Shown piece by piece: positions 22,474 to 58,119 of a stretch of DNA of 64,000 bases (its first letter is position 1; each line of letters starts with the position of its first letter). The notes below the pieces were generated by a model, which saw only the letters and a program-made list of their open reading frames with translations, searched no databases and had not been told where the DNA came from. The stretch comes from Paraburkholderia edwinii (GTDB lineage: Bacteria > Pseudomonadota > Gammaproteobacteria > Burkholderiales > Burkholderiaceae). The position numbers and the translations under genes were made by a program. The DNA lies in NCBI RefSeq assembly GCF_019428685.1, contig NZ_CP080095.1, positions 4,464,001 to 4,528,000 on the forward strand, in the 5' to 3' direction.

Positions 22474-23172
22474 ATGGATACGAAAGCGAAAGGCGATCGG
22501 AAGAAGCGTGCGTTGTGGGACATCACACCCGCTGTCGATGCAGCCACGCCCGTCTGGCCCGGCGACACGCCGGTGGGTATCGAACGGGTCTGGCGCATGG
22601 AGGCCGGCTCGCCCGTCAATGTCGCACGCCTGACCCTGTCGCCGCACACCGGCGCGCATACCGACGCGCCGCTCCACTACGACGCCGACGGCGCGGCGAT
22701 CGGCGAAGTGCCGCTCGATGTCTACCTCGGCCCGTGTCGCGTGATTCATTGCATCGGCGCGGCACCGCTCGTCACGCCCGACCACGTTAAGGCGGCGCTC
22801 GACGCCGTCCCGGCCCGCGTGTTGCTGCGCACTTATGCGCATGCACCGCTACGTGAATGGGATAGGGCGTTCTGCGCGGTTGCACCGGCAACGATCGACC
22901 TGCTCGCCGCGCGCGGCGTGCGATTAATCGGCATCGACACGCCCTCGCTCGATCCGCAAGACTCCAAAACGATGGACGCGCACTTGCGCGTGCGCGCACA
23001 CGGCATGGCCATTCTCGAAGGCATCGTGCTCGACGAGGTCGAAGCCGGCGACTACGAGCTGATCGCGTTGCCGCTCAAGCTGACGACGCTCGATGCGAGC
23101 CCGGTGCGCGCGGTGCTGCGTGCACTGGACGGCGCGTCGAGCCCGAGCCCTAGCCCGAGCCAGCAAGACTAA
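22474..23172 (+). CDS. kynB: Kynurenine formamidase
   Basis: 232 residues. Hydrolyses N-formylkynurenine to kynurenine and formate, the second step of tryptophan catabolism via anthranilate. The cyclase-family metal site [12 protein letters not shown] supplies the His/Asp zinc ligands; [29 protein letters not shown] and a later H-x-E element ([12 protein letters not shown]) are characteristic. It heads kynB-kynU-kynA with gaps of 48 and 58 bp. The C-terminal Ser/Pro repeat ([11 protein letters not shown]) is a low-complexity tail. Confidence 0.95.
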
Positions 23173-23220
23173 CGAACCGGTTGCCGGCGTTGCGACCGCC
23201 CCTGATTGACGGAAACCACA

Positions 23221-24471
23221 ATGAATACCCGAGACGAAGCCGTGGCCCTCGACGAAGCCGACCCGCTCGCGCCGCTGCGCGCGCAGTTCGCGCTTGCGCC
23301 CGACACGATCTATCTGAACGGCAATTCGCTCGGCGTGCCGCCCGCGGCCGCAGCGCAGCGCGCGCAGGTCGTAATCGCGGCCGAATGGGGCGAAGGCCTC
23401 GTGCGTAGCTGGAACACGGCCGGCTGGTTCGCGCTCGCGAAGCGCCTCGGCAACAAGCTCGCGCCGCTCGTCGGTGCCGCGCACAACGAAATTGTCGTCA
23501 CCGATTCGATTTCGGTGAATCTGTTCAAGCTGCTGTCGGCGGCCTTGCGTTTCCAGAGGCAGCGCGATCCGAAACGGCGCGTGATCGTCGCGGAGCGCGG
23601 CGATTTTCCGAACGATCTGTATATTGCGCAGGGCCTCGTTGCGCAGTTCGACGGCGCGTATGAACTGCGTTTCATCGACGATCCGTCGGAACTGCCGGCC
23701 GCATTGCAGCCGGACACGGCGGTCGCGATGCTGACGCAGGTCAACTACCGCAGCGGCTATATGCACGATATGGCCGCACTCACGCAGCTGATTCATCAGA
23801 AAGGCGCGCTCGCACTGTGGGACCTCGCGCATTCGGCGGGTGCGGTGCCGCTCGATCTGAATGGCGTCGGCGCCGACTGCGCAGTCGGTTGCACGTACAA
23901 GTATCTGAACGGCGGCCCCGGTTCGCCCGCGTTCGTCTGGGTGCCGCACCGCCATCAGAATGCATTCACGCAGCCGCTGTCCGGCTGGTGGGGACACCGC
24001 GCGCCGTTCGCGATGAATCCGGTCTTCGAACCCGAAGACGGCATCGGGCGCTTTCTGAGCGGCACGCAGCCGATCGTCTCGATGGCGCTCGTCGAATGCG
24101 GACTCGACGTGTTCCTGCAAACCGATATGCCCTCGATTCGCAAGAAATCGCTGGCATTGACCGATCTCTTTATCGAACTTGTCGAAGCGCGTTGCGACGC
24201 GTTTCCGTTGCGCCTCATCACGCCGCGCGAGCATGCGCGGCGCGGCTCGCAGGTGAGCTTCGCGCATCCGAACGGCTACGAAGTGATGCAGGCGCTGATT
24301 GCGCGCGGCGTGATCGGCGACTATCGCGAGCCGCACGTGCTGCGCTTCGGCTTGACGCCGCTTTACACGCGCTACGTCGATGTATGGGACGCGGTCGAGA
24401 CGCTGCGCGACGTACTCGCGAACGAAACCTGGCGAGCCGCGGAATTCGCGCAGCGCGCGGCGGTGACCTGA
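23221..24471 (+). CDS. kynU: Kynureninase
   Basis: 416-residue PLP enzyme that cleaves kynurenine to anthranilate and alanine. [12 protein letters not shown] near the N-terminus, [15 protein letters not shown] (PLP-binding Asp) and [15 protein letters not shown] (Schiff-base Lys) are diagnostic; a C-terminal segment [18 protein letters not shown] completes the fold. A TTG five codons upstream is possible but the ATG at 23221 begins the predicted protein. Middle gene of the kyn operon. Confidence 0.96.
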
Positions 24472-24529
24472 GCGGACAAGCCAACGGACGAACGAAGCAG
24501 CGGATAAAGCAGCGGACAAGGAGCGCACG

Positions 24530-25549
24530 ATGACCACCGACCCGATGAAGCTGCAGGACGACGAACGCCCGCACGGCCCGGGCGCCGCGCGCGACGGCAC
24601 GCCTGGATCGCACGGGCCGCACGCGCCGCACAGTTCACATCCGCAGCACAGTCCACACGCGCCTCACATGGCCGCGGGCGACGGCAGTGATAACGACAAC
24701 CACACCGGCAACCACAGCGCCAACCGCACCGGCCAGCACGCGGGCGAAGCCAGCGGCCCATCGAAGTCGATGACCTATGCCGACTACCTGTCGCTCGACA
24801 CGCTGCTGTCCGCGCAGCATCCGCTGTCGCCCGATCCCAACGAGATGCTGTTCATCATCCAGCATCAGACGAGCGAGCTATGGCTCAAGCTCGCGCTCTA
24901 CGAACTGCGCGGCGCGCTCGCCGCCGTGCATCGCGACGAGTTGCCGCGCGCGTTCAAGATGCTCGCGCGCGTGTCGCGGATCTTCGAGCAGCTGGTGCAG
25001 GCGTGGGACGTGCTCGCGACGCTCACTCCGTCCGAATACACGTCGATGCGGCCGTACCTCGGCAGTTCGTCGGGATTTCAGTCGTTTCAGTATCGCGAGC
25101 TCGAGTTTCTGCTCGGCAACAAGCATGCGGAAATGGTGGCGCTGCATGCGCAACGGCCCGAGGCCATGAACGCGATTCGCGGCTTGCTCGAAAAGCCATC
25201 GTTCTACGACGAAGTGGTGCGTCTGCTCGCACGGCGCGGCCTCGCAATTGCGCCGGAAAGACTGGAACGCGACTGGACGAAGCCGACCGAATACGACGCG
25301 AGCGTCGAGGCCGCGTGGCTCGAGGTCTATCGCAATCCATCGAAGCATTGGGAGCTGTACGAAATGGCCGAAGAGCTGGTCGACCTCGAAGACGAGTTTC
25401 GCCAGTGGCGCTTCCGGCATGTAACGACCGTCGAGCGGATCATCGGCTTCAAGCAGGGCACCGGCGGAACGCCGGGTGTGCCGTATCTGCGCAAGATGCT
25501 CGACGTCGTGCTGTTTCCCGAACTGTGGCACGTGCGCACGGTGCTATAG
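24530..25549 (+). CDS. kynA: Tryptophan 2,3-dioxygenase with His-rich N-terminal extension
   Basis: 339 residues. Heme enzyme that opens the indole ring of tryptophan to N-formylkynurenine, the first pathway step. The core begins near residue 80 ([13 protein letters not shown]) and includes [18 protein letters not shown] (heme-pocket His, quoted in part), [14 protein letters not shown], and [14 protein letters not shown], in which the conserved His is the expected axial heme ligand. The first 79 residues are low-complexity with 11 His between residues 15 and 70. No alternative start with a good ribosome-binding site was found inside the extension, so it appears to be translated. Confidence 0.94.
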
Positions 25550-25636
25550 CCGTCCGCGCTTTCCACGCATCTCCACGTCCCTTCCCCACCTCCGCTTTCA
25601 TGCCGCACCGCCGCACGAAAACCTCGTCGCGCCGCC

Positions 25637-25690
25637 TTGACTTTCGTCGCAGCGAATACGATCATAAGTTCACAAACTGAGCAAATGCTC
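25637..25690 (+). promoter_or_regulatory. Polyol promoter-operator module (dalD side)
   Basis: TTGACT (25637-25642), a 17-nt spacer and GATCAT (25660-25665) form a sigma70-type promoter. It is followed by TCACAAA (25670-25676) and the dyad GAGCA-AA-TGCTC (25679-25690), about 7 to 18 bases after the expected transcription start. The same arrangement stands in front of the polyol ABC operon at 57840-57893. Placement just downstream of the start suggests a repressor or ligand-responsive SorC-type site. The 289-bp gap to dalD holds no other recognised feature except TAGGAG before the ATG. Confidence 0.7.
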
Positions 25691-25838: not shown

Positions 25839-27248
25839 ATGAACAGCGTCCCGAGCGGCAGCGGCGCGAATGCGCACGTCATCCTGCATATCGGCGCAGG
25901 CTCGTTTCATCGCGCGCATCAGGCGTGGTATCTGCACCGGCTCAACGAAGCGCGCGTCGAAGGCGAGCCGCACTGGTCGCTTTCCGTCGGCAATATCCGC
26001 AACGACATGAATGCCGTGATGGACGCGCTGGCCGCGCAAAACGGCGTCTACACGCTCGAGACCGTCACGCCGCAAGGCGAGCGCGCGTACGAGGCGGTCC
26101 ACTCGATCACCCGCGTGCTGCCGTGGTCCGCCGATCTGAAAGCGCTGATCGATGCGGGCGCCGATCCGGCCTGCAAGATCATCTCGTTCACCGTCACCGA
26201 AGGCGGCTATTACCTCGACGAGCACGACCACCTCGATACGGCGAACCCCGACCTCACGGCGGATCTGAACGGCGCGCGCACCACGATCTACGGCGCGCTC
26301 GCCGCGATTCTCGAAGCGCGCATGCAGCGCGACGCCGGCCCGGTCACGCTGCAGACCTGCGACAACCTGCGCAGCAACGGGCATCGCTTTCACGCAGGCA
26401 TGACCGCGTTTCTCGACCGGCGCAACGCGACCGCGTTGCGCGCGTGGTTCGATGCGAACACCGCGAGCCCGAGTTCGATGGTCGATCGCATCACGCCACG
26501 GCCGACGCCCGATGTGCGCGAGCGTGTGCGCGCCGCGACCGGCATCGACGACGCATGCCCGGTGATGGGCGAATCGTTTATCCAGTGGGTGATCGAAGAT
26601 CAGTTTCGCGCGGGGCGCCCCGCATGGGAAAAAGTCGGCGCGGAACTGGTCGACTCGGTAGTGCCTTATGAAGAAGCGAAAATCCGCATTCTGAACGCGA
26701 CGCATAGCTGCATCGCATGGGCCGGCACGCTGGTCGGCTTGCGCTATATCCACGAAGGCACGATCGACCGCGAGATCCAGCAGTTCGCGTACGACTACGT
26801 GACGCAAGACGTGATTCCGTGTCTCACGCCAAGCCCGATCGACCTGGGCCGCTATCGCGACGTCGTGCTCGAGCGCTTCAGCAATCCCTTTATCCAGGAC
26901 ACGAACCAGCGTGTCGCGGCCGACGGCTTTTCGAAGATCCCGGGCTTTATCGCGCCGACGCTTTCCGAAACCTTCGCGCGCGGCAAGACGCCGGCTGCGA
27001 CCGCGATGCTGCCTGCACTGTTCTTCCGCTTTCTCGACCGCTGGCAGCAGGGCAAGCTGCCGTACACCTATCAGGACGGCGTGATGGACGAAAAGGTCGC
27101 GCGCGGTTTCTTCGCGGCGGCGGATCCGGTCAAGGCGTATTGCGCGGACCGGCTGCTGTGGGGCCGCATGGCGCAGACGCCGCAGCTTGAGGATGCGGTG
27201 CGCGCGGCACTTGCGCGCGTCGACGAGTGGCTCGACAAGCGTGCTTGA
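25839..27248 (+). CDS. dalD: Mannitol/D-arabinitol dehydrogenase family protein
   Basis: 469-residue long-chain polyol dehydrogenase. NAD-dependent enzymes of this family oxidise D-mannitol to fructose or D-arabinitol to D-xylulose. The N-terminal Rossmann segment reads HIGAGSFHRAHQAWY; the catalytic K-x4-N-x2-H signature is KIRILNATH. The adjacent xylulokinase makes D-arabinitol the more probable substrate (product D-xylulose), by analogy with Klebsiella dalD-dalK, but mannitol cannot be excluded. TAGGAG stands nine bases before the ATG. First gene after the polyol promoter; xylB follows after 156 bp. Confidence 0.85.
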   Translation: MNSVPSGSGANAHVILHIGAGSFHRAHQAWYLHRLNEARVEGEPHWSLSVGNIRNDMNAVMDALAAQNGVYTLETVTPQGERAYEAVHSITRVLPWSADLKALIDAGADPACKIISFTVTEGGYYLDEHDHLDTANPDLTADLNGARTTIYGALAAILEARMQRDAGPVTLQTCDNLRSNGHRFHAGMTAFLDRRNATALRAWFDANTASPSSMVDRITPRPTPDVRERVRAATGIDDACPVMGESFIQWVIEDQFRAGRPAWEKVGAELVDSVVPYEEAKIRILNATHSCIAWAGTLVGLRYIHEGTIDREIQQFAYDYVTQDVIPCLTPSPIDLGRYRDVVLERFSNPFIQDTNQRVAADGFSKIPGFIAPTLSETFARGKTPAATAMLPALFFRFLDRWQQGKLPYTYQDGVMDEKVARGFFAAADPVKAYCADRLLWGRMAQTPQLEDAVRAALARVDEWLDKRA

Positions 27249-27404
27249 GTGCACAAGTTGGGACGCAAGTTGCACGCAAATCAGAATTCCTGCGGTCCAT
27301 GGTCCCAAGCTTCATCAAAAACGCGTTTAAGGTCTAACGCGCATGGCATCGCCCGCCGCATGCGGCTAAAGTAGCGCATCTTTATCGACGAAGGTACCGC
27401 GCAC

Positions 27405-28892
27405 ATGTATCTCGGCATCGATCTCGGCACGTCCGAAGTAAAAGTCCTGCTGCTCGCGTCCGATGGACGCGTGATCGGCACAGCGGGCTCACCGTTTACC
27501 GTATCGCGACCGCATCCGCGCTGGTCCGAGCAGAACCCGATCGACTGGTGGGAAGGTACGCGTGCCGCCTTGTTCGCATTGCGCGACAAGCACCCCGACG
27601 AATTCGCGCAGATTCGCGGCATCGGCCTGTCGGGCCAGATGCACGGCGCCGTGTTGCTCGATGCGCAGGACCGCGTGCTGCGTCCGGCGATTCTGTGGAA
27701 CGACATGCGCAGCGTCGAAGAATGCGCGGAGCTGACCGAGCGCGCGCCCGAACTGCATCGTGTGGCCGGCAATCTCGCGATGCCAGGCTTCACCGCGCCG
27801 AAGCTGCTGTGGGTCGCGCGGCACGAGCCCGACATTTTCAAACAGACCGCCTGCGTGCTGCTGCCGAAAGACTACTTGCGTCTGCAACTGACGGGCGGCA
27901 AGGTGTCCGATCCGTCGGATGCGGCCGGCACCTTGTGGCTCGATGTCGCGAAGCGCGACTGGTCCGATTCGCTGCTCGCCGCGTGCAATCTGTCGCGCGC
28001 GAACATGCCGGGTCTCGCGGAAGGCAGCGCGCCGTCGGGCATGCTGAAGCCCGAGCTGGCGCGCGAGTTCGGCTTGCGCGAACCGGTCGTCGTGGCGGCG
28101 GGCGGCGGCGACAATGCGACAAGCGCGATCGGCATCGGCGCGACGCAACCGGGCGACGGTTTCGTTTCGCTCGGCACGTCGGGCGTGCTGTGCGTGATCG
28201 GCGACAGCTTCCGGCCGAATCCCGAGTCCGCGGTGCACGCGTTCTGTCACGCGATTCCAAACCGCTGGCATCAGATGAGCGTCGTACTGTCGGCGGCAAG
28301 CTGCCTGCGCTGGGTCTGCAAGCTGACCGGCACGAACGAGACGACGCTGCTGCCCGAAATCGAAGCGCTGCCTGAAGAGGCGCTCACGCATGCGCCGATC
28401 TTCCTGCCGTATCTGTCGGGCGAGCGCACGCCGCATAACGACCCGTACGCGCAAGGCGTGTTCTTCGGCATGACGCACGCGACCGATCGCGCGCTGCTCG
28501 GTTATGCGGTGCTCGAAGGCGTGACGCTCGCGTTGACCGACGGGCTCGATGCATTGAAGGCGGCCGGCACCGAAGCGAACGCATTGTCGCTGCTCGGCGG
28601 CGGCGCGCGCAGCAATTACTGGGGGCAACTGCTCGCGGACGCGCTCAATACGAATACGCGCAAGCATGGCGGCGGCGAAACGGGCGCTGCATTGGGCGCC
28701 GCTCGCCTCGGCTGGCTCGCGGCCGGCGGCGACCCCGCGCAGGTGCTGACGAAGCCGCCCGTCGAAATCGAATTCACGCCGAATCCGCGGCGGCATGCGG
28801 TGCTGCGTCGGCGCCTCGAGCATTACCGCGCGCTGTATCGGCAACTGAAGCCGCTGTTCGCGGAAACAGCGACAAGCGATTCGAAGGCGTAA
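27405..28892 (+). CDS. xylB: Xylulokinase
   Basis: 495 residues, FGGY carbohydrate kinase. Phosphorylates D-xylulose to xylulose 5-phosphate for the pentose phosphate pathway. LGIDLGTSEVKVLLL (phosphate 1), GIGLSGQMHGAVLLD with WNDMRS (substrate recognition), GGGDNATSAIGIG and LLGGGARSNYWGQLLAD (adenosine) are family motifs. The MHG-type substrate loop is typical of xylulokinases rather than glycerol kinases. Placed between dalD and the SorC regulator; together they form a polyol-to-pentose-phosphate route. Confidence 0.93.
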   Translation: MYLGIDLGTSEVKVLLLASDGRVIGTAGSPFTVSRPHPRWSEQNPIDWWEGTRAALFALRDKHPDEFAQIRGIGLSGQMHGAVLLDAQDRVLRPAILWNDMRSVEECAELTERAPELHRVAGNLAMPGFTAPKLLWVARHEPDIFKQTACVLLPKDYLRLQLTGGKVSDPSDAAGTLWLDVAKRDWSDSLLAACNLSRANMPGLAEGSAPSGMLKPELAREFGLREPVVVAAGGGDNATSAIGIGATQPGDGFVSLGTSGVLCVIGDSFRPNPESAVHAFCHAIPNRWHQMSVVLSAASCLRWVCKLTGTNETTLLPEIEALPEEALTHAPIFLPYLSGERTPHNDPYAQGVFFGMTHATDRALLGYAVLEGVTLALTDGLDALKAAGTEANALSLLGGGARSNYWGQLLADALNTNTRKHGGGETGAALGAARLGWLAAGGDPAQVLTKPPVEIEFTPNPRRHAVLRRRLEHYRALYRQLKPLFAETATSDSKA

Positions 28893-28943
28893 CGGTCACG
28901 TCGAACCGCTTGCCAGGCAGAAGCCTCACGTCATCCAATCACC

Positions 28944-29924
28944 GTGCCCAAGTCCAGCGAAAAACTCGATCTCGCGACGCGTGCTGCCTGGCTCTACTAC
29001 GTGGCAGGCAACACGCAGAACGAGATTGCCGAGAAGTTGCAGGTGTCGCGCCCCGTCGCGCAGCGGCTCGTTGCGTTCGCGGTCGAGAAAAACCTGATTC
29101 GCGTGCGCGTCGATCATCAGCTGGCCGAGTGCCTCGCGCTCGCTGACGAGCTATCTAAACGCTACGGGCTGTCGATGTGCGAAGTCGTGCCCGTCGATAA
29201 CGATACGCAGGAAGAAATCGACCGCAAGCTCGCGGTCGCGGGCGCGCAGGTCATGGAGCGGTTCCTCGGCGAAGAAAAGCCGATGGTGGTTGCAGTGAGC
29301 AGCGGGCGCACGCTGAAGGCCGTCGTCGATCAGGTCGGGCAGCTCGAGCGACCGCAACATCGGCTTGTATCGATGGTCGGCGCGATCGCGCATGACGGAT
29401 CGTCGAACCGTTATGACGTCGCGCTTCACATCTCGGAGAAGACCGGCGGCAAGTACTTTCTGTTGCCGGCGCCGTTGATTGCCGATAGCGAGGCCGAACG
29501 CGCGCAGTGGTGCAATCACCGGCTCTATCGCATTGTCGAATCGCTTTCGGGCGAAGCTGATGTCGCGTTCGTCGGCATCGGCAATATCGGGCCGCAGTGT
29601 CCGCTGCACGAAGACGGATTTATCACGTCCGATGAAGTCGCGGAATTGATGCAGGTCGGTGCCGTCGCCGAACTGCACGGCTTGCCGATTTCGGCTGACG
29701 GCGCACGCATCGAGTCGCCGACCGAACGGCGTGTAACCAGTATTCGCCCGGTTTCCCCGCCGAAGCGGCCGACCATCGGCTTCGCCTGCGGCGAACGCAA
29801 GCGCACCGCTGTGATTGCCGCGCTCAAGGGCGGCTGGCTGTCAGGGCTCGTGACCGACGAGCTTTGCGCGCGCGCGGCGCTTGAAGAAGCCGCCGATGCC
29901 GGCGTCAAAGAGACCGCGCGTTAA
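28944..29924 (+). CDS. SorC/DeoR-type sugar-binding transcriptional regulator
   Basis: 326 residues from a GTG start. The N-terminal HTH (about residues 10-50) reads AAWLYYVAGNTQNEIAEKL (part) and VSRPVAQRLV; the rest is the SorC sugar-phosphate-binding domain (VAVSSGRTLKAVVDQ, DVAFVGIGNIG, DELCARAAL). Such regulators are effector-controlled tetramers acting on sugar or polyol operons. Last gene of the dalD-xylB group (51 bp after xylB). It is the only sugar regulator in the window and hence the best candidate to bind the shared sites at 25679-25690 and 57840-57851. Confidence 0.9.
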   Translation: MPKSSEKLDLATRAAWLYYVAGNTQNEIAEKLQVSRPVAQRLVAFAVEKNLIRVRVDHQLAECLALADELSKRYGLSMCEVVPVDNDTQEEIDRKLAVAGAQVMERFLGEEKPMVVAVSSGRTLKAVVDQVGQLERPQHRLVSMVGAIAHDGSSNRYDVALHISEKTGGKYFLLPAPLIADSEAERAQWCNHRLYRIVESLSGEADVAFVGIGNIGPQCPLHEDGFITSDEVAELMQVGAVAELHGLPISADGARIESPTERRVTSIRPVSPPKRPTIGFACGERKRTAVIAALKGGWLSGLVTDELCARAALEEAADAGVKETAR

Positions 29925-51773: not shown

Positions 51774-52883
51774 TCAGGCGGCCAGTTCCTGCGCGATCCT
51801 TCGGCGGAACGCGAGCCCATTAGCATCGAACAGGTGACAATGGTCCGGCTCCGCGCCGAGCTTGATCTTCGTGCCCTTCGCGTGCCGCTCGAGCGGCGGA
51901 ATCCGCGCGATCAGCCCTTCGGGCGCGACGCCGCACTCCGCGTACAGATAGGCGGCATCGCCGAGCGACTCGACCGTCATCACGTTCGCCGATACACCGA
52001 ACTCGGTCGAATCGACATGCGTATGCTCGGGCCGGATTCCGACCGTCACCTTGTCGCCTTCCTTCGCGCTGCCCGGTTCGACCGCGACGCGTTGGGTCTC
52101 GCCCGTTTCATAGCGCACCAGCACGCCGTCGGGCGTGACCGACTGCACGATGCCGTCCATGAAGTTCATCTTCGGCGAGCCGATAAAGCCCGCGACAAAG
52201 CGGTTCGCCGGCGCGTGATACAGCGTGTTAGGCGTGCCAACCTGTTCGAGATTGCCGGCCGACAGCACGACGATCTTGTCGGCGAGCGTCATCGCCTCGA
52301 CCTGATCGTGCGTCACGTAGATCATCGTCGTCTTCAGTTCGTCGTGCAGCCGCGCAAATTCGAGGCGCATTTTCACGCGCAGCGCCGCATCGAGGTTCGA
52401 CAGCGGCTCGTCGAACAGAAACACCTTCGGCTTGCGCGTGATCGCGCGGCCGATCGCGACGCGCTGGCGCTGCCCGCCCGACAGCTGCTTCGGCTTGCGC
52501 TCGAGCAGGTGGTCGATATGCAGGATCTTCGCCGCATTGCGCACGGCCTGATCGATTTCGGGCTTTTTCGCGCCCGCAAGCTTGAGGCCGAACGCCATGT
52601 TGTCGTAGAGCGTCATATGCGGATACAGCGCATAGGACTGGAACACCATCGCGATGCCGCGCTTCGCCGGCGGCACCTCGTTCATGCGCGTGCCGTCGAT
52701 GCTCAGATCGCCGCTGCTGATGTCCTCGAGGCCCGCGATCATCCGCATCAGCGTCGACTTCCCGCAGCCGCTCGGACCGACGAACACGACAAACTCGCCA
52801 TCCGCGATGTCGAGGTTGATGTTGCGCATCACTTCGTTGTCGTCGTAGCGCTTGCTGATATTGCGCAATGCCAGGCTAGCCAT
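51774..52883 (-). CDS. smoK: CUT1 sugar/polyol ABC transporter ATPase (UgpC/SmoK type)
   Basis: 369 residues. Walker A VGPSGCGKSTLMRMIAGLE, Q-loop VFQSYALYPHMT, signature LSGGQRQRVAIGRAI, Walker B VFLFDEPLSNLDAALR and switch His in YVTHDQVEAMTLADK; residues after 240 form the MalK-type regulatory OB fold. Energises the permeases encoded upstream. GGAGAC before the ATG at 52883 and the MASLALRNISK opening set the start. Last gene of the operon, 28 bp after the HAD gene. The symbol follows Rhodobacter polyol-transport usage. Confidence 0.9.
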   Translation of the reverse strand: MASLALRNISKRYDDNEVMRNINLDIADGEFVVFVGPSGCGKSTLMRMIAGLEDISSGDLSIDGTRMNEVPPAKRGIAMVFQSYALYPHMTLYDNMAFGLKLAGAKKPEIDQAVRNAAKILHIDHLLERKPKQLSGGQRQRVAIGRAITRKPKVFLFDEPLSNLDAALRVKMRLEFARLHDELKTTMIYVTHDQVEAMTLADKIVVLSAGNLEQVGTPNTLYHAPANRFVAGFIGSPKMNFMDGIVQSVTPDGVLVRYETGETQRVAVEPGSAKEGDKVTVGIRPEHTHVDSTEFGVSANVMTVESLGDAAYLYAECGVAPEGLIARIPPLERHAKGTKIKLGAEPDHCHLFDANGLAFRRRIAQELAA

Positions 52884-52911
52884 GATGTGTCTCCAATGTT
52901 GCTTGCGATTG

Positions 52912-53637
52912 CTACTGTTGCGTGATGGTGCGATGTTGCGTCCACTCCGCGACCAGCGCCGGCAGTAGCCGCATATCGTCGAATACGTGCTGCGCGCCGG
53001 CCGCGCGCAATGCGCCAACCTGATGTTCGCTCGCATGACCGCCGCCGACGAAGCCGATCACCGTCATGCCGGCCGCCGTCGCCGCGGTCACGCCTGTCAC
53101 GCTGTCCTCGACGACGAGGCACGCGTCGGGCGTCACGTTCAGGCCGCGCGCGGCCGCCAGATAGACATCGGGCGCCGGCTTTGGCCGCTCGACCGAATCC
53201 GCGCAGAAGAGCCGCCCACCGAAAAACTTCGCGAGCCCCGTGCGCGCCAGCGCTGCTTCGACATACGGACGAAAGCTGTTGCTCGCGCACGCCTTCGTCA
53301 ACGGAATCGCCGCGAGCGCCTCACCAATGCCGTCGACAGTCGGCGCCTGCACGGCCGCCGCTTCGACCTTCGTGCGAATCGCGCCGATATCGCCGTCGGC
53401 GAACTGCTTGCCCAGTTGCGCGGCCGTGCCTTGGAGCACGCGCTCGATACGCAGGCCGAGCAGCGGCATCACGACGGGCGCGACATCGGCATCGGGCCAG
53501 CGCGCCTCGAGTTCGCGCACGAGCATCGCGGCCGCGACGGCTTCGCTGTCGATCAGCACACCGTCGCAATCGCAGATCAGCGCGAGGCCGGGTTCCATGC
53601 GAGGTTCTGTCCGAGTCTCTGTCCGGTTTTCTGTCAC
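52912..53637 (-). CDS. HAD-superfamily phosphatase (beta-phosphoglucomutase-like subfamily)
   Basis: 241 residues. Motif I DCDGVLIDSE (about 23-32) has the nucleophile and acid Asp; the Ser/Thr motif lies in KACASNSFRP and motifs III/IV in RPKPAPDVYLAAARGL and VVEDSVTGVTAA. Likely dephosphorylates or mutates a sugar phosphate. Being inside a polyol transport operon suggests disposal of a toxic polyol or sugar phosphate. The start is a GTG overlapping the permease stop (GTGA); MEPGLAL at 53598 is an alternative, since the first 13 residues are repetitive (TENRTETRTEPR). Confidence 0.83.
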   Translation of the reverse strand: MTENRTETRTEPRMEPGLALICDCDGVLIDSEAVAAAMLVRELEARWPDADVAPVVMPLLGLRIERVLQGTAAQLGKQFADGDIGAIRTKVEAAAVQAPTVDGIGEALAAIPLTKACASNSFRPYVEAALARTGLAKFFGGRLFCADSVERPKPAPDVYLAAARGLNVTPDACLVVEDSVTGVTAATAAGMTVIGFVGGGHASEHQVGALRAAGAQHVFDDMRLLPALVAEWTQHRTITQQ

Positions 53638-54506
53638 TTGACCGCCCCGAACGTAAGGCCGCGCACGAGCTGCTTCTGCGACAGCCAGCCGACGATCAGA
53701 ATCGGCGCGACCGCAAGCAGCGACGCAGCGGACAGCTTCGCCCAGAACAACCCCTCAGGGCTCGAATACGAGGCGATGAACACCGTCAGCGGCGCCGCGT
53801 TCGAACTCGACAGGTTGATGCTCCAGAACGCTTCGTTCCACGACAGAATGACGAGCAGCAGCGCCGTCGACGCCAGCCCCGGCAACGCCATCGGCATCAG
53901 CAGATAGACGATTTCCTGCCACGTCGCGGCGCCGTCGATACGGCCGGCTTCGAGAATGTCGCGCGGAATCTCGTTGAAGTACGTGAACGCCATCCACACG
54001 GCAATCGGCAGGTTGATCAGCGTATAGACGATGATGAGCCCCGTCACGGTGTCGAGCAGGCCGCTGTTTTTACACAGCAGATAGATCGGCACGAGCACGC
54101 CGACCGACGGCATCATCTTCGTCGACAGCATCCACAGCAAGGTCTGCTGCGTGCGCTTGCTCGGGAAAAAAGCCATCGCATATGCGGCCGGCACCGCGAG
54201 GAGTAGACACACGATCGTCACGCCAACGGAAATCAGCACCGAGTTCCACGCGAAGCCGAAGTAATTGCTGCGCGCGAACACCTCGCGGAAGCTCTCCAGC
54301 GTCGGCGTGAAAAACAGCGACGACGAATACGCCTGCTGTTCGGTCTTGAACGCGGTGATCGTCATCCAGAAGATCGGGAAAAACAGCGCGATCGAGATCA
54401 GCCACGCGAGAATCCCGGGAATACTGCGCCGTACGACAGCCAGCGGCGATGCCGCCGGCGCGGTCGTCGTTGCGCTCGTAACGGGTGTAGCAGCGACTTG
54501 ACTCAT
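53634..54506 (-). CDS. smoG: Polyol ABC transporter permease 2 (MalG type)
   Basis: 290 residues with six membrane segments. The EAA coupling loop reads EAGRIDGAATWQEIVYLLMP, which contacts the ATPase. An N-terminal Ala/Thr-rich cytoplasmic leader precedes the first helix. Pairs with the upstream permease. Its ATG overlaps that gene's stop (ATGA), and its own stop overlaps the HAD start, so the genes are tightly coupled. Confidence 0.9.
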   Translation of the reverse strand: MSQVAATPVTSATTTAPAASPLAVVRRSIPGILAWLISIALFFPIFWMTITAFKTEQQAYSSSLFFTPTLESFREVFARSNYFGFAWNSVLISVGVTIVCLLLAVPAAYAMAFFPSKRTQQTLLWMLSTKMMPSVGVLVPIYLLCKNSGLLDTVTGLIIVYTLINLPIAVWMAFTYFNEIPRDILEAGRIDGAATWQEIVYLLMPMALPGLASTALLLVILSWNEAFWSINLSSSNAAPLTVFIASYSSPEGLFWAKLSAASLLAVAPILIVGWLSQKQLVRGLTFGAVK

Positions 54507-55438
54507 TTTTCGTACTCCCCTTTCAGGTTCTTCGCGAGCATCTTCACGAGGAAGAACGACACGATGTTCGCGACGACGACCGCGAGAATGCCGCCCGCCG
54601 ATGCGAGGCCGACATCGAACTGCTGCAGGCCCAGTGCGTAGATCAGGTACGACAGGTTGGTCGTGGCGTTGCCGGGACCGCCGCCGGTCGTCGTATAGAT
54701 TTCAGCGAAGATCGACAGCAGGAAAATCGTTTCCATCATCACGACCACGGCGATCGCGCGTCGCAAGTGCGGCAGCGTGATGAAGAAGAACATCGCGAAC
54801 GGTCCGGCGCCGTCGATCTTCGCCGCTTCTTTCTGCTCCTGATCGAGCGACTGGATCGCGGTGAACAGAATCAGAAACGCGAACGGCAGCCACTGCCACG
54901 CGACGATGATGATCACCGACGTCAACGGATAAGTCGCGAACCAGTCGATCGGCGTCAGGCCGACCGCGCGCATCCCATCGGCCACGAGGCCGTACACCGG
55001 GTGCAAGATCATGTTCTTCCAGATCAGCGCGCTGACCGTCGGCATCACGAAGAACGGCGCGATCGCAAGCAGGCGCGCGATGCCCTGCCCGTAGAACTTG
55101 CGGTCGAACAGCACGGCCATCAGCACGCCGCCCACCACCGTGATCACGAGCACCGCGATGATCAGCTGCAGCGTATGCACGATCGACGGCCAGAACGACG
55201 GGTCGGTGGCGAGGTAGTGGTAGTTATCGAAACCGGCGAACCCTTTTTCATCGGGGTTCAGCAGGTTGTAGCGCGTGAACGAAAACCAGATCGTCATCGC
55301 GAGCGGAATCGCCATCCACAGCAGCAACACTGCGACAGAAGGCGATACGAGCCAGCGCGCGGATGCAGCTTTGCGCGACTCGCGTTCCTGTTCGGTTTGG
55401 GGTTCGGCGTGCGACAGAGGAAGGCGCAGATGAGGCAT
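54503..55438 (-). CDS. smoF: Polyol ABC transporter permease 1 (MalF type)
   Basis: 311 residues, six main membrane segments and a soluble N-terminal leader. The EAA loop is EAAKIDGAGPFAMFFFITLP. Typical CUT1 sugar permease without the large periplasmic insert of MalF. Located after the binding-protein gene and a 26-bp stem-loop; four-base overlap with the second permease. Confidence 0.9.
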   Translation of the reverse strand: MPHLRLPLSHAEPQTEQERESRKAASARWLVSPSVAVLLLWMAIPLAMTIWFSFTRYNLLNPDEKGFAGFDNYHYLATDPSFWPSIVHTLQLIIAVLVITVVGGVLMAVLFDRKFYGQGIARLLAIAPFFVMPTVSALIWKNMILHPVYGLVADGMRAVGLTPIDWFATYPLTSVIIIVAWQWLPFAFLILFTAIQSLDQEQKEAAKIDGAGPFAMFFFITLPHLRRAIAVVVMMETIFLLSIFAEIYTTTGGGPGNATTNLSYLIYALGLQQFDVGLASAGGILAVVVANIVSFFLVKMLAKNLKGEYEK

Positions 55439-55563: not shown

Positions 55564-56889
55564 TTACTTTTGCAGGCCGGCCTGACGCACCGCGCGATCC
55601 GCGGTCGCGTTGCCGGCCGTCAGGGCCTGGTCGACGCTCATCTGGCCCGCAACCGCGCCCGAGATGCTCTGACCGACCACCGTACCGAACGACTGGAACT
55701 CAGGAATCCCGACGAACTGCACACCGGTGTACGGCACGGGCTTCAACGTCGGATGGTTCGGGTCGGCCGTTTCGATCGCCTTCAGCACGAAGTCCGCAAA
55801 CGGCGCGGCCTGCTTGTACTCGGGGCGCTGATACGTCGACTGGCGCGTGCCCGGCGGCACCGACGCCCAGCCTTCGTCCTTCGCGACCATCTCGATGTAT
55901 TCCTTCGACGTCGCCCACTCGATGAACTTCTTAGCGGCATCTTGCTGCTTCGACGTCTTCGGAATCGCGAGCGCCCATGCCCAGAGCCAGTGCGAACCGT
56001 TCGGCGTGACCTGCGTCGGCGCCGCGGCAAAACCGACCTTGTCCGAAATCTGCGATTGCTGCTTGTTGTACAGGATGCCGGCCGCAACCGTCGCGTCGAT
56101 CCACATTGCGCACTTGCCCGACGACATCAGCGTCAGGTTTTCGTTGAAGCCGTTCGAGCTCGCTCCCGGCGGGCCGTATTTCTTCAGCAGATCGACGTAG
56201 AACGACACGGCCTTTTTCCACTCCGGCGTGGTCAGCTGTGCATGCCACTTCTCGTCGAACCAGCGGCCGCCGAACGTATTGACGAGCGTCGTCACGTAGG
56301 CCATGTTCTCGCCCCAGCCAGCCTTGCCGCGCAAACAGATGCCGTACATGCCAGCCGACTTGTCGGTCAGCTTGTCGGCGAATTGCGCGATCTGGTCGTA
56401 GGTCGGGTTATCGGGCATCTTCAGGCCCTTCGCCGCGAACAGGTCCTTGCGGTAGAACGTCATCGAGCTTTCAGCGTAGAACGGCAACGCATACAGCGTG
56501 TTGTTGTACGACAGCCCGTCGCGCGCGGTCTTCACGACATCGTTGAGGTCGTAGCTTGCCGGCAGATCCGTGAGCGGCGAGAGCCAGCCGCGCTTGCCCC
56601 ATTGCGGCGTTTCATACGCGCCGATCGTCATCACGTCGAACTGGCCGCTGCCGGTCGTGATGTCGGTCGTCGCGCGCTGACGCAGCACGTTTTCCTCGAG
56701 AATCACCCAGTTCAGCTTGATGTCCGGATTCGCCTTTTCGAACGCGGGCGAGAGCTTCTTCAGCTCGATCATGTCCGGATTGTTAAGGGTCGCGATCGTC
56801 ACGGTCGACGCCGCCGACGCATTGAGCGCCACGCACGCGGCCGCTGCGGCGCCGATCGCCGTCAGCGTAGGTTTCAGGGCTGGTTTCAT
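55564..56889 (-). CDS. smoE: Polyol ABC transporter substrate-binding protein
   Basis: 441 residues, type I cluster D binding protein (SBP_bac_1). A Sec signal peptide ends at NASA-AST near residue 26. The mature part shows VTIATLNNPDMIELKKL, GQFDVMTIGAYETPQWG and WLWAWALAIPKTS. Similar proteins in Rhodobacter (SmoE) and Pseudomonas bind sorbitol, mannitol or arabitol. Second gene of the operon, 103 bp after the dehydrogenase. Confidence 0.88.
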   Translation of the reverse strand: MKPALKPTLTAIGAAAAACVALNASAASTVTIATLNNPDMIELKKLSPAFEKANPDIKLNWVILEENVLRQRATTDITTGSGQFDVMTIGAYETPQWGKRGWLSPLTDLPASYDLNDVVKTARDGLSYNNTLYALPFYAESSMTFYRKDLFAAKGLKMPDNPTYDQIAQFADKLTDKSAGMYGICLRGKAGWGENMAYVTTLVNTFGGRWFDEKWHAQLTTPEWKKAVSFYVDLLKKYGPPGASSNGFNENLTLMSSGKCAMWIDATVAAGILYNKQQSQISDKVGFAAAPTQVTPNGSHWLWAWALAIPKTSKQQDAAKKFIEWATSKEYIEMVAKDEGWASVPPGTRQSTYQRPEYKQAAPFADFVLKAIETADPNHPTLKPVPYTGVQFVGIPEFQSFGTVVGQSISGAVAGQMSVDQALTAGNATADRAVRQAGLQK

Positions 56890-56992: not shown

Positions 56993-57775
56993 TCAGCTCA
57001 TCCAGTTGCCGCCGTCGACATTCAGCGTTTGCGCGGTGATGTAGTCCGCATCGGCCGAGGCGAGAAACAGCGCCGCGCCGGTCAGATCCGCCGGCAGCCC
57101 CATCCTGCCAAGCGGCACCGCTTCGCCGACGAGTCGCTTCTTCTCGCCGAGCGGCCGGTTCTCATAACGTGCGAACAGCGCATCGACCTGCTCCCACATC
57201 GGCGTATCGACGACGCCCGGTGCGATGCCGTTCACGTTGATCCTGTGCGGCGCGAGGGCAAGCGCCGCCGATTGCGTATAGCTGAGTACCGCCGCCTTCG
57301 TCGCGCAGTAGTGCGAGACGAGCGCCTCGCCGCGGCGCCCGGCCTGCGACGACATATTGATGATCTTGCCGCCGTGGCCCTGCTCGACCATGCGCTGCGC
57401 AACCGCCTGCATCAGGAAGAACATGCCCTTCACGTTGACCGCGAAAAGCTTGTCGTAGATGTCCCAGGATTCGTCGAGCAGCGGCCGCATATCGAAGAGC
57501 GCCGCGTTGTTGAACAGGATATCGATACGGCCGAAGTGCTCGACCGTTTGAGCGACGATGCGCTCGATGTCTTCACGCCACGTGACGTCCGCGCTGATCG
57601 CTAGCACGCGGTCGCTGTGCGTTTCACGCAGCGGGTGGGCGAATTCGCCGGCCGGCTTGACGTCGACCAGCACGCAGCGCGCGCCCTCGTCCAGATACCG
57701 GCGCGCGACCGCTTCGCCAATGCCGCTTGCCGCGCCGGTGAGAATGGCCACCTTGTCTTGCAGTCGCGCTGCCAC
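56993..57775 (-). CDS. smoS: Short-chain polyol dehydrogenase (sorbitol/L-iditol 2-dehydrogenase type)
   Basis: 260 residues. Nucleotide loop TGAASGIGEAVARRYLDEGA, NNAAL, catalytic Ser in INMSSQAGRRGE and Y-x3-K in HYCATKAAV. Asp in LVDVKPAG points to NAD+ preference. It resembles Rhodobacter SmoS, which oxidises sorbitol to fructose and galactitol to tagatose. First gene of the transporter operon, 65 bp after the start of the promoter-operator module, so uptake and first oxidation are co-expressed. Confidence 0.88.
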   Translation of the reverse strand: MAARLQDKVAILTGAASGIGEAVARRYLDEGARCVLVDVKPAGEFAHPLRETHSDRVLAISADVTWREDIERIVAQTVEHFGRIDILFNNAALFDMRPLLDESWDIYDKLFAVNVKGMFFLMQAVAQRMVEQGHGGKIINMSSQAGRRGEALVSHYCATKAAVLSYTQSAALALAPHRINVNGIAPGVVDTPMWEQVDALFARYENRPLGEKKRLVGEAVPLGRMGLPADLTGAALFLASADADYITAQTLNVDGGNWMS

Positions 57776-57839
57776 GCCGTGTCTCCCAATCGTTCGTCTG
57801 GTGCAAATCTTTGCGCCAGTGAGCGAACGCTCTCTGTGC

Positions 57840-57893
57840 GATCAATTGCTCTCTTTGTGATCGAATGATCGGATACGTGTCCGGCCATGTCAA
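57840..57893 (-). promoter_or_regulatory. Polyol promoter-operator module (smo side)
   Basis: On the minus strand TTGACA (57893-57888), a 17-nt spacer and GATCAT (57870-57865) form a good sigma70 promoter. TCACAAA (57860-57854) and GAGCAATTGATC (57851-57840) follow in exactly the register seen at 25660-25690. A further dyad GAGCG-AA-CGCTC lies at 57821-57832, closer to the gene. The shared layout implies a common regulator, probably the SorC-type protein at 28944. Confidence 0.7.
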
Positions 57894-58119
57894 GGCACGC
57901 CGCAAGATTTCGATGGTGCAGCGCGGCAGTTGCGTGGCGTTTGCCGGCATTGCCTGGGGTTTAGCCGGAGTTCGCTCAAGACGGAGGCGCGAAATGTTGC
58001 TTGAGCGTGTGCTGCCGCCGGTTTCAGTCGGCTTGTTCGCCGGTTCGTTGGGTTCGCCGGGTTTGAGCCGCCTCGCCCTATCAATTTACACGGCGTCAGC
58101 GTTCAATCAATGGCAAGAT

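Follow-up and report, generated by a model that had tools for sequence, protein, structure and literature searches.

The 64,000-nt stretch of Paraburkholderia edwinii DNA analysed here (the window) carries two polyol operons that point towards each other. On the forward strand (25839-29924), dalD (25839..27248), encoding a D-arabinitol 4-dehydrogenase (NF043014, 3e-231, above cut-off), is followed by xylB (27405..28892), encoding a xylulokinase (TIGR01312, 4.9e-171, above cut-off), and, 51 nt after xylB, by sorC (28944..29924), the gene for a SorC/DeoR-type sugar-binding regulator (PF04198, 4.3e-50). On the reverse strand, from 57775 down to 51774, smoS (56993..57775; L-iditol 2-dehydrogenase/sorbitol dehydrogenase; NF005472, 2.2e-141, above cut-off) opens a run that continues with an ABC sugar-binding protein (55564..56889; PF01547, 6.6e-59), two ABC permeases (54503..55438 and 53634..54506; sugar ABC permease models, all matches below cut-offs), a HAD-family phosphatase (52912..53637; PF00702, 8.2e-20) and a smoK-type ABC ATPase (51774..53036; NF008653, 3.8e-144, above cut-off; NF008233, 2.6e-156, below cut-off). 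The true start of the ATPase is probably near 52886, since its profile match begins at residue 52. The HAD phosphatase gene, here inside a polyol transport operon, is also found in the cluster of most relatives mapped. Directly upstream of the dalD promoter (22474-25549) are genes of the kynurenine pathway, for arylformamidase, kynureninase and tryptophan 2,3-dioxygenase.

A promoter-like block precedes each operon, at 25637-25690 (+) before dalD and at 57893-57840 (-) before smoS, and the original prediction was that the two share one layout. Re-alignment verified the coordinates and strands, the ungapped match, TTGAC(T/A) at the -35, the 17-nt spacer, GATCAT in both blocks and the 24 of 31 positions identical from the -10 onward; over the whole block 36 of 54 positions agree. 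When the dalD block was searched against the window, the next-best place matched at 28 of 54 positions (mean 12.9, SD 3.2). By a naive binomial, about 1.1 matches as good as that between the two blocks would be expected when every place in the window is paired with every other, and 3e-5 between two 500-nt promoter regions. The letter match alone is good rather than decisive, and the control region is taken as real because its conservation, in a whole-genome profile search and across the genus, settles what the letters cannot. A profile of 22 rows (11 dalD and 11 smoS, with both window sites among these training rows) returned two sites in the 8.3-Mb genome, at 3.7e-14 and 2.5e-12, with the third-best at 0.3. 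A pattern search allowing up to three mismatches gave 11 places in the genome and 11 for a reversed control, and only two exact matches stood out; the best match beyond the pair (C2:640739, two mismatches) lies inside a 277-codon ORF and was rejected as a third target. No Rfam element reached gathering scores within positions 20000-64000 of the window.

The anatomy of the block was derived from 93 different sequences for dalD and 91 for smoS, sorted by the letter preceding GATCAT, a sorting that agrees with the downstream gene at 145/145 named sites. Letters conserved in 90% or more of the sequences make up TTGAC, stretches of the 17-nt spacer, a 12-bp palindrome containing the -10 (O0, mostly GATCATTCGNTC), the A that begins an otherwise variable 7-nt linker, and a second 12-bp palindrome (O1, mostly GAGCAAWTGNTC). 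O0 and O1 are imperfect palindromes 19 nt apart. At dalD, the -35 TTGACT (25637..25642, +) is followed by the -10 GATCAT (25660..25665, +), which lies inside the predicted operator O0, GATCATAAGTTC (25660..25671, +), and then by the predicted operator O1, GAGCAAATGCTC (25679..25690, +). At smoS, the corresponding features are TTGACA (57888..57893, -), GATCAT (57865..57870, -), the predicted O0, GATCATTCGATC (57859..57870, -), and the predicted O1, GAGCAATTGATC (57840..57851, -). The promoter hexamers were read directly and the palindromes were assigned by family comparison. The scheme GANC-N4-GNTC fits O0 in 89/93 dalD and 76/91 smoS sequences (4 and 15 deviate, respectively) and O1 in 91/93 and 91/91; the family matrix is ungapped, and a sequence with another O0–O1 spacing would score as a miss. 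The motif TCACAAA, originally listed as a shared unit, does not survive as one: its TC belongs to O0 and the 7 nt that follow are mostly variable linker, a variation that rules it out as a component of the site. With transcription starts predicted about 7 nt beyond GATCAT, near 25672 and 57858, O0 would span -12 to -1 and O1 +8 to +19. The predicted occupation just past the start would therefore hold for O1 but not for O0, which overlies the -10 itself.

At smoS there is also a third palindrome, O2 (57821..57832, -; in the family mostly GAGCGTTCGCTC, as in the window), again assigned by family comparison and placed 19 nt from O1. It fits the scheme exactly in 72/91 smoS sequences and retains at least five of the six fixed letters in 90/91, while at the same register of dalD there are no exact fits among 93 sequences and only two with five of the six letters. 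This difference bears on the idea that the two blocks resemble each other through recent copying of one promoter from the other, with no common regulator, which we regard as highly improbable. The shared run does span the interval from an upstream element to O1, as would be seen in a copied control region, but O2 is restricted to smoS, the palindromes are retained although linker and spacer diverge, and in the named loci GATCAT is preceded by AC at 73/73 dalD sites and by CC at 72/72 smoS sites. Recent copying would also call for conservation only in the nearest relatives of the window, whereas conservation was found throughout the genus.

Among 117 genomes of Paraburkholderia, the profile search found the block in 115, the top match in each reaching an E of about 2e-12 or lower, so the conservation in close relatives on which the original prediction depended is present. 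The other two genomes gave a best E of 0.689 (G034) and no match at E <=1 (G501; 1.06 with more candidates scored). The SorC protein, at E <=1e-60, was detected in the same 115 of 117 genomes and was absent from the same two, with a 27% match as the sole SorC likeness in G501; block and sorC are therefore present or absent together in 117/117. G034 also has no smoS at 1e-60. As SorC and the block are missing from the same genomes, one of which also lacks smoS, the co-occurrence links the block to the gene cluster rather than to the SorC protein alone. Both of these genomes, devoid of control block and SorC gene, are among the smaller ones of the genus. In a matrix scan of 80 named loci, the dalD site (72/72) and the smoS site (72/72) were found wherever 300 nt or more of upstream sequence was available; the remaining contigs or loci end before the gene or its upstream region. 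P. xenovorans LB400 (L127) is among the loci with both sites. The matrix was trained on 18 of the 22 rows and some named loci come from the same species as training rows, and the counts are thus not fully independent. By these sequence comparisons, the block is a conserved control region.

The layout also extends beyond the genus. From 399 genomes drawn from the order, 11 had the protein at 1e-60, with seven outside the family in which SorC is 55-61% identical. In the seven distant Burkholderiales loci (G041 spans two of them, L078 and L092), sorC is divergent from a single gene run that ends in dalD-xylB; smoS is first in the run in three, the smoS query had no match in the other four, and the HAD phosphatase query had none in one. 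All seven carry TTGACA-N17-O0 (GAWTATTTGCYC) in the gap facing sorC, and five have O1 at the exact 7-nt linker with at least 9 of 12 letters, the exceptions being L091, where O1 is one nt off, and L078, where it is weak. With 18 rows from the genus as its training set, a matrix ranked the promoter spot first, over both strands, in six of these seven 15-20 kb loci; in L091 its best place falls within the same gap, away from the promoter. In addition, L089, L090 and L091 have an extra pair of palindromes at 19 nt just upstream of the promoter (for example, 10084-10114 in L089 and 10122-10152 in L091), which could serve the divergent sorC itself.

The spacing of the palindromes was then counted in 27 loci outside the family, comprising these seven and 20 of the 52 phylum matches outside the order, with the control region defined as the 350 nt in front of a sorC, smoS, dalD or binding-protein gene. 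Exactly 19 nt separates 18 of the 33 palindrome pairs in control regions, while every other spacing from 12 to 40 nt accounts for three pairs at most; outside the control regions, in 478 kb of the same loci, 5 of 40 pairs are at 19 nt. A 19-nt pair is present in 15/27 loci, and 12/27 are without one at the threshold used, the spacing and thresholds having been picked after seeing the genus and then counted in the distant loci. For example, in the pSymB polyol cluster of S. meliloti Ak57, whose regulator homologue is 43.9% identical to the SorC of the window, the binding-protein gene is preceded by TTGACA, 16 nt, GAGTAATTGCTC, 7 nt and AGGCAAATGCTC. Skermanella rosea has no 19-nt pair at this threshold and instead has an 18-nt pair after sorC.

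The original prediction placed both loci in a single regulon of the SorC-type protein at 28944, and this is the best reading of the comparative evidence, favoured because block and regulator gene co-occur and because distant gaps facing sorC share the same layout. In full, the two blocks are very probably promoter-operators, each with tandem operators, of one small regulon under the SorC/SmoC-type repressor encoded at 28944. It is quite unlikely that the palindromes are instead read by another, unlinked regulator, with SorC a mere neighbour. The genome does contain four weaker SorC-type matches (five in total with that at 28944), and the block-less genomes lack SorC and one of them smoS as well. 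However, the same layout recurs among clusters linked to sorC in other families and classes despite their different gene order, and no other regulator travels with the cluster among the genes mapped, for which the genes of the window served as queries.

The protein at 28944 is a SorC/DeoR-type regulator. Its PF04198 sugar-binding domain covers residues 60-313, its nearest solved relative is DeoR of B. subtilis (8r7y, 1.5e-39), with LsrR and SorC also near, and the profile alignment to 8r7y runs from position 5 and covers an N-terminal DeoR-type helix-turn-helix. The NCBIfam equivalog models for DeoR and LsrR match below their cut-offs. Two arginines, R36 and R41, are invariant across eight aligned regulators. 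The lysine of DeoR that we take to be effector-binding, holding deoxyribose 5-phosphate, is aligned with a valine in the protein at 28944. R36 and R41 would correspond to R34 and R39 of DeoR, given an offset of 5 deduced between chain and published numbering. In the accessible text on DeoR, R39 contacts T14 and G4 and R34 contacts T12 (PMC11229326); if base numbers follow the 18-mer as printed, this G4 would be the G of the GANC arm. The PF04198 domain, the helix-turn-helix with its arginine pair and the predicted two-part operator together fit assignment to the SorC/DeoR family.

Comparison with known systems places the predicted operator close to, but distinct from, those described. DeoR and CggR are reported, in the accessible parts of the same paper, to act as tetramers on two half-operators, at distances of 22 nt (DeoR) and 20 nt (CggR) when counted from the printed operators (PMC11229326). 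In the present family, the two predicted halves would lie about two helical turns apart; pairs at 19 nt occur at each of the two promoters and also among relatives. Like DeoR, as far as that text describes it, the regulator retains, by alignment, the pair of operator-contacting arginines, the 12-bp core of the left half of the DeoR operator opens with a GANC arm, and the operator, predicted here, has two halves, which in DeoR are bound by a tetramer; unlike here, the DeoR halves are asymmetric, 22 nt apart and located from -60 to -21, rather than 19 nt apart over the -10 and the start. CggR similarly has two palindromes in direct repeat with a period of 20, 3' of the promoter and bound by a dimer of dimers (PMC11229326), but its DNA-binding domain and operator sequence are different, and the operator described there covers +32 to +77 of one operon.

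In terms of gene content, the two operons resemble SmoC-type regulons. As described in the accessible text, the smo locus of S. meliloti comprises a binding protein, two permeases, an ATPase, smoS and a mannitol/arabitol dehydrogenase together with a DeoR-type regulator, SmoC, which mutant and reporter data identify as a negative regulator of these homologous genes (PMC10433430). That system is a single locus with a separately transcribed regulator and, in that text, no operator described (PMC10433430), whereas here there are two operons with predicted operators and sorC follows xylB; the S. meliloti cluster compared above is that on pSymB of Ak57, not the chromosomal smo. In relatives, the regulator gene is linked to smoS, the ABC polyol transporter and the mannitol/arabitol dehydrogenase, a linkage that is loose (21.8 kb) in the window. 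Among the open-literature matches listed, no paper was found on the operator of SmoC or DalR, and no title or abstract describes this control region (subscription papers lay outside the scope of the search). The kind of switch is already known, while this particular control region seems to be undescribed.

Each promoter combines a good -35 with a poor -10 (GATCAT) buried in O0, with O1 19 bp further on, at about +8 to +19. A regulator tetramer, as a dimer of dimers, may bind the two palindromes next to each other, separated by some two helical turns, covering the -10 and the start and so excluding RNA polymerase. Release of the regulator would be triggered by a polyol or by a sugar phosphate derived from it, with xylulose 5-phosphate or the polyol itself as possible effectors. 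Because sorC is the third gene behind the dalD promoter, after dalD and xylB, the regulator is proposed to repress its own synthesis. The smoS promoter, with O2 in register as a third palindrome, may be held more tightly.

Both promoters also share a conserved element upstream of the -35, which a one-nt indel had masked in the ungapped comparison. At dalD it lies at 25605..25621 (+), 15 nt before the -35, and matches the genus consensus GCGCTGCGCCACGAAAA at 13 of 17 positions; at smoS it is GCGCTGCACCATCGAAAT (57907..57924, -), 13 nt before the -35. The smoS element has 0-5 mismatches in 91/91 sequences, against 6-10 in one shuffle of each upstream, and the dalD element has 0-4 mismatches in 75/92, against 5-9 in shuffles. 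Its distance from the -35 falls into two classes: at smoS, the 3' end is 13-14 nt away in 68/91 and 24-25 nt in 23/91, with none between, and at dalD, of the 89/92 elements with up to six mismatches, 84 are at 14-16 nt, three at 25-26 nt and two far off. When the near and far states are mapped onto a 98-row SorC tree, they change at least twice in each promoter, a count that excludes rows with more than five mismatches and reflects few independent events. The shift of 10-11 nt looks like one helical turn, as for an activator site, and the conserved element suggests that something besides SorC may also act on both promoters. NtrC, AraC/marbox, Cra and CRP sites were considered as its identity, and none appears to fit. 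The genome holds 74 matches to the element with up to three mismatches, against 19 for the reversed pattern; the 20 examined included no other promoter-like copy, and 19 of them, all but the smoS site, lie in ORFs, with the longest at least 203 codons, against 109 at the smoS site.

The upstream element also bears on whether SorC is mainly an activator, or both activator and repressor, at these sites, which we consider unlikely. Its distances, one helical turn apart, resemble those of activator sites, and EryD, a SmoC-like regulator, is described in the accessible text as acting both ways (PMC10433430). In contrast, O0 and O1 overlie the -10 and the start, where bound protein would block polymerase, the element is by eye unlike O0, O1 and O2, and SmoC itself is reported there to be negative (PMC10433430).

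The two loci were originally suggested to have once been adjacent, and gene order supports this within the genus. In 76 of the 80 named loci, both sorC and smoK lie within the flank, and the two are convergent in 76/76, separated by 52-7193 nt and by less than 1 kb in 54/76; of the other four, two (L178 and L181) run out of sequence beforehand, and in L102 and L103 no smoK lies in the neighbouring 10 kb. Beyond the genus, many loci of other classes have sorC beside transporter genes. The two-operon state, with the control region doubled, is likely to be derived, because other families have a single run beside a divergent sorC and other classes have sorC beside the transporter genes. The paired layout would then be older than the arrangement in the Burkholderiaceae, a single run beside a divergent sorC having become two convergent operons, each with a copy of the control region. 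Alternatively, the present state may have arisen by merger of two modules, as L182-L184 and L197 carry dalD-xylB without the transporter, divergent from sorC.

On a broader and more tentative reading, which we think possible though less than probable, SmoC-like polyol regulators across the Pseudomonadota would keep a fixed code, a pair of 12-bp palindromes at a spacing of exactly 19 bp, the first of which takes in the -10, through the splitting and reshuffling of their genes and the change from one control region to two, and in the Burkholderiaceae both copies would also keep a regulon-specific upstream site, confined to one helical face, at which a second regulator would act. If true, this would define the operator of a widespread group of polyol regulators exactly and in testable form, and palindrome pairs at a 19-nt spacing could then be used to find their targets. 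The split cluster would represent a clean case in which a doubled control region keeps the halves of a pathway under one protein, many kb apart, and the three palindromes at smoS versus two at dalD, in the same cell and under the same protein, would make it possible to test directly what use tetrameric SorC proteins make of the number of operators.

In the lineage of the window, 11-22 kb of other genes would later have come between the operons: the sorC-smoK gap is 21.85 kb in the window, 12.8 kb in G026 and 11.4 kb in G028, and the latter two have some of the window's gap genes at the edges of their gaps. In the window, this interval (29925-51773) contains genes for a styrene-monooxygenase-like flavoprotein, an amidohydrolase and an AraC-type regulator, a TonB siderophore receptor and an FhuB-type permease (ferrichrome-type uptake), pntAB, and the oxalate genes for formyl-CoA transferase, oxalyl-CoA decarboxylase and an oxalate/formate antiporter.
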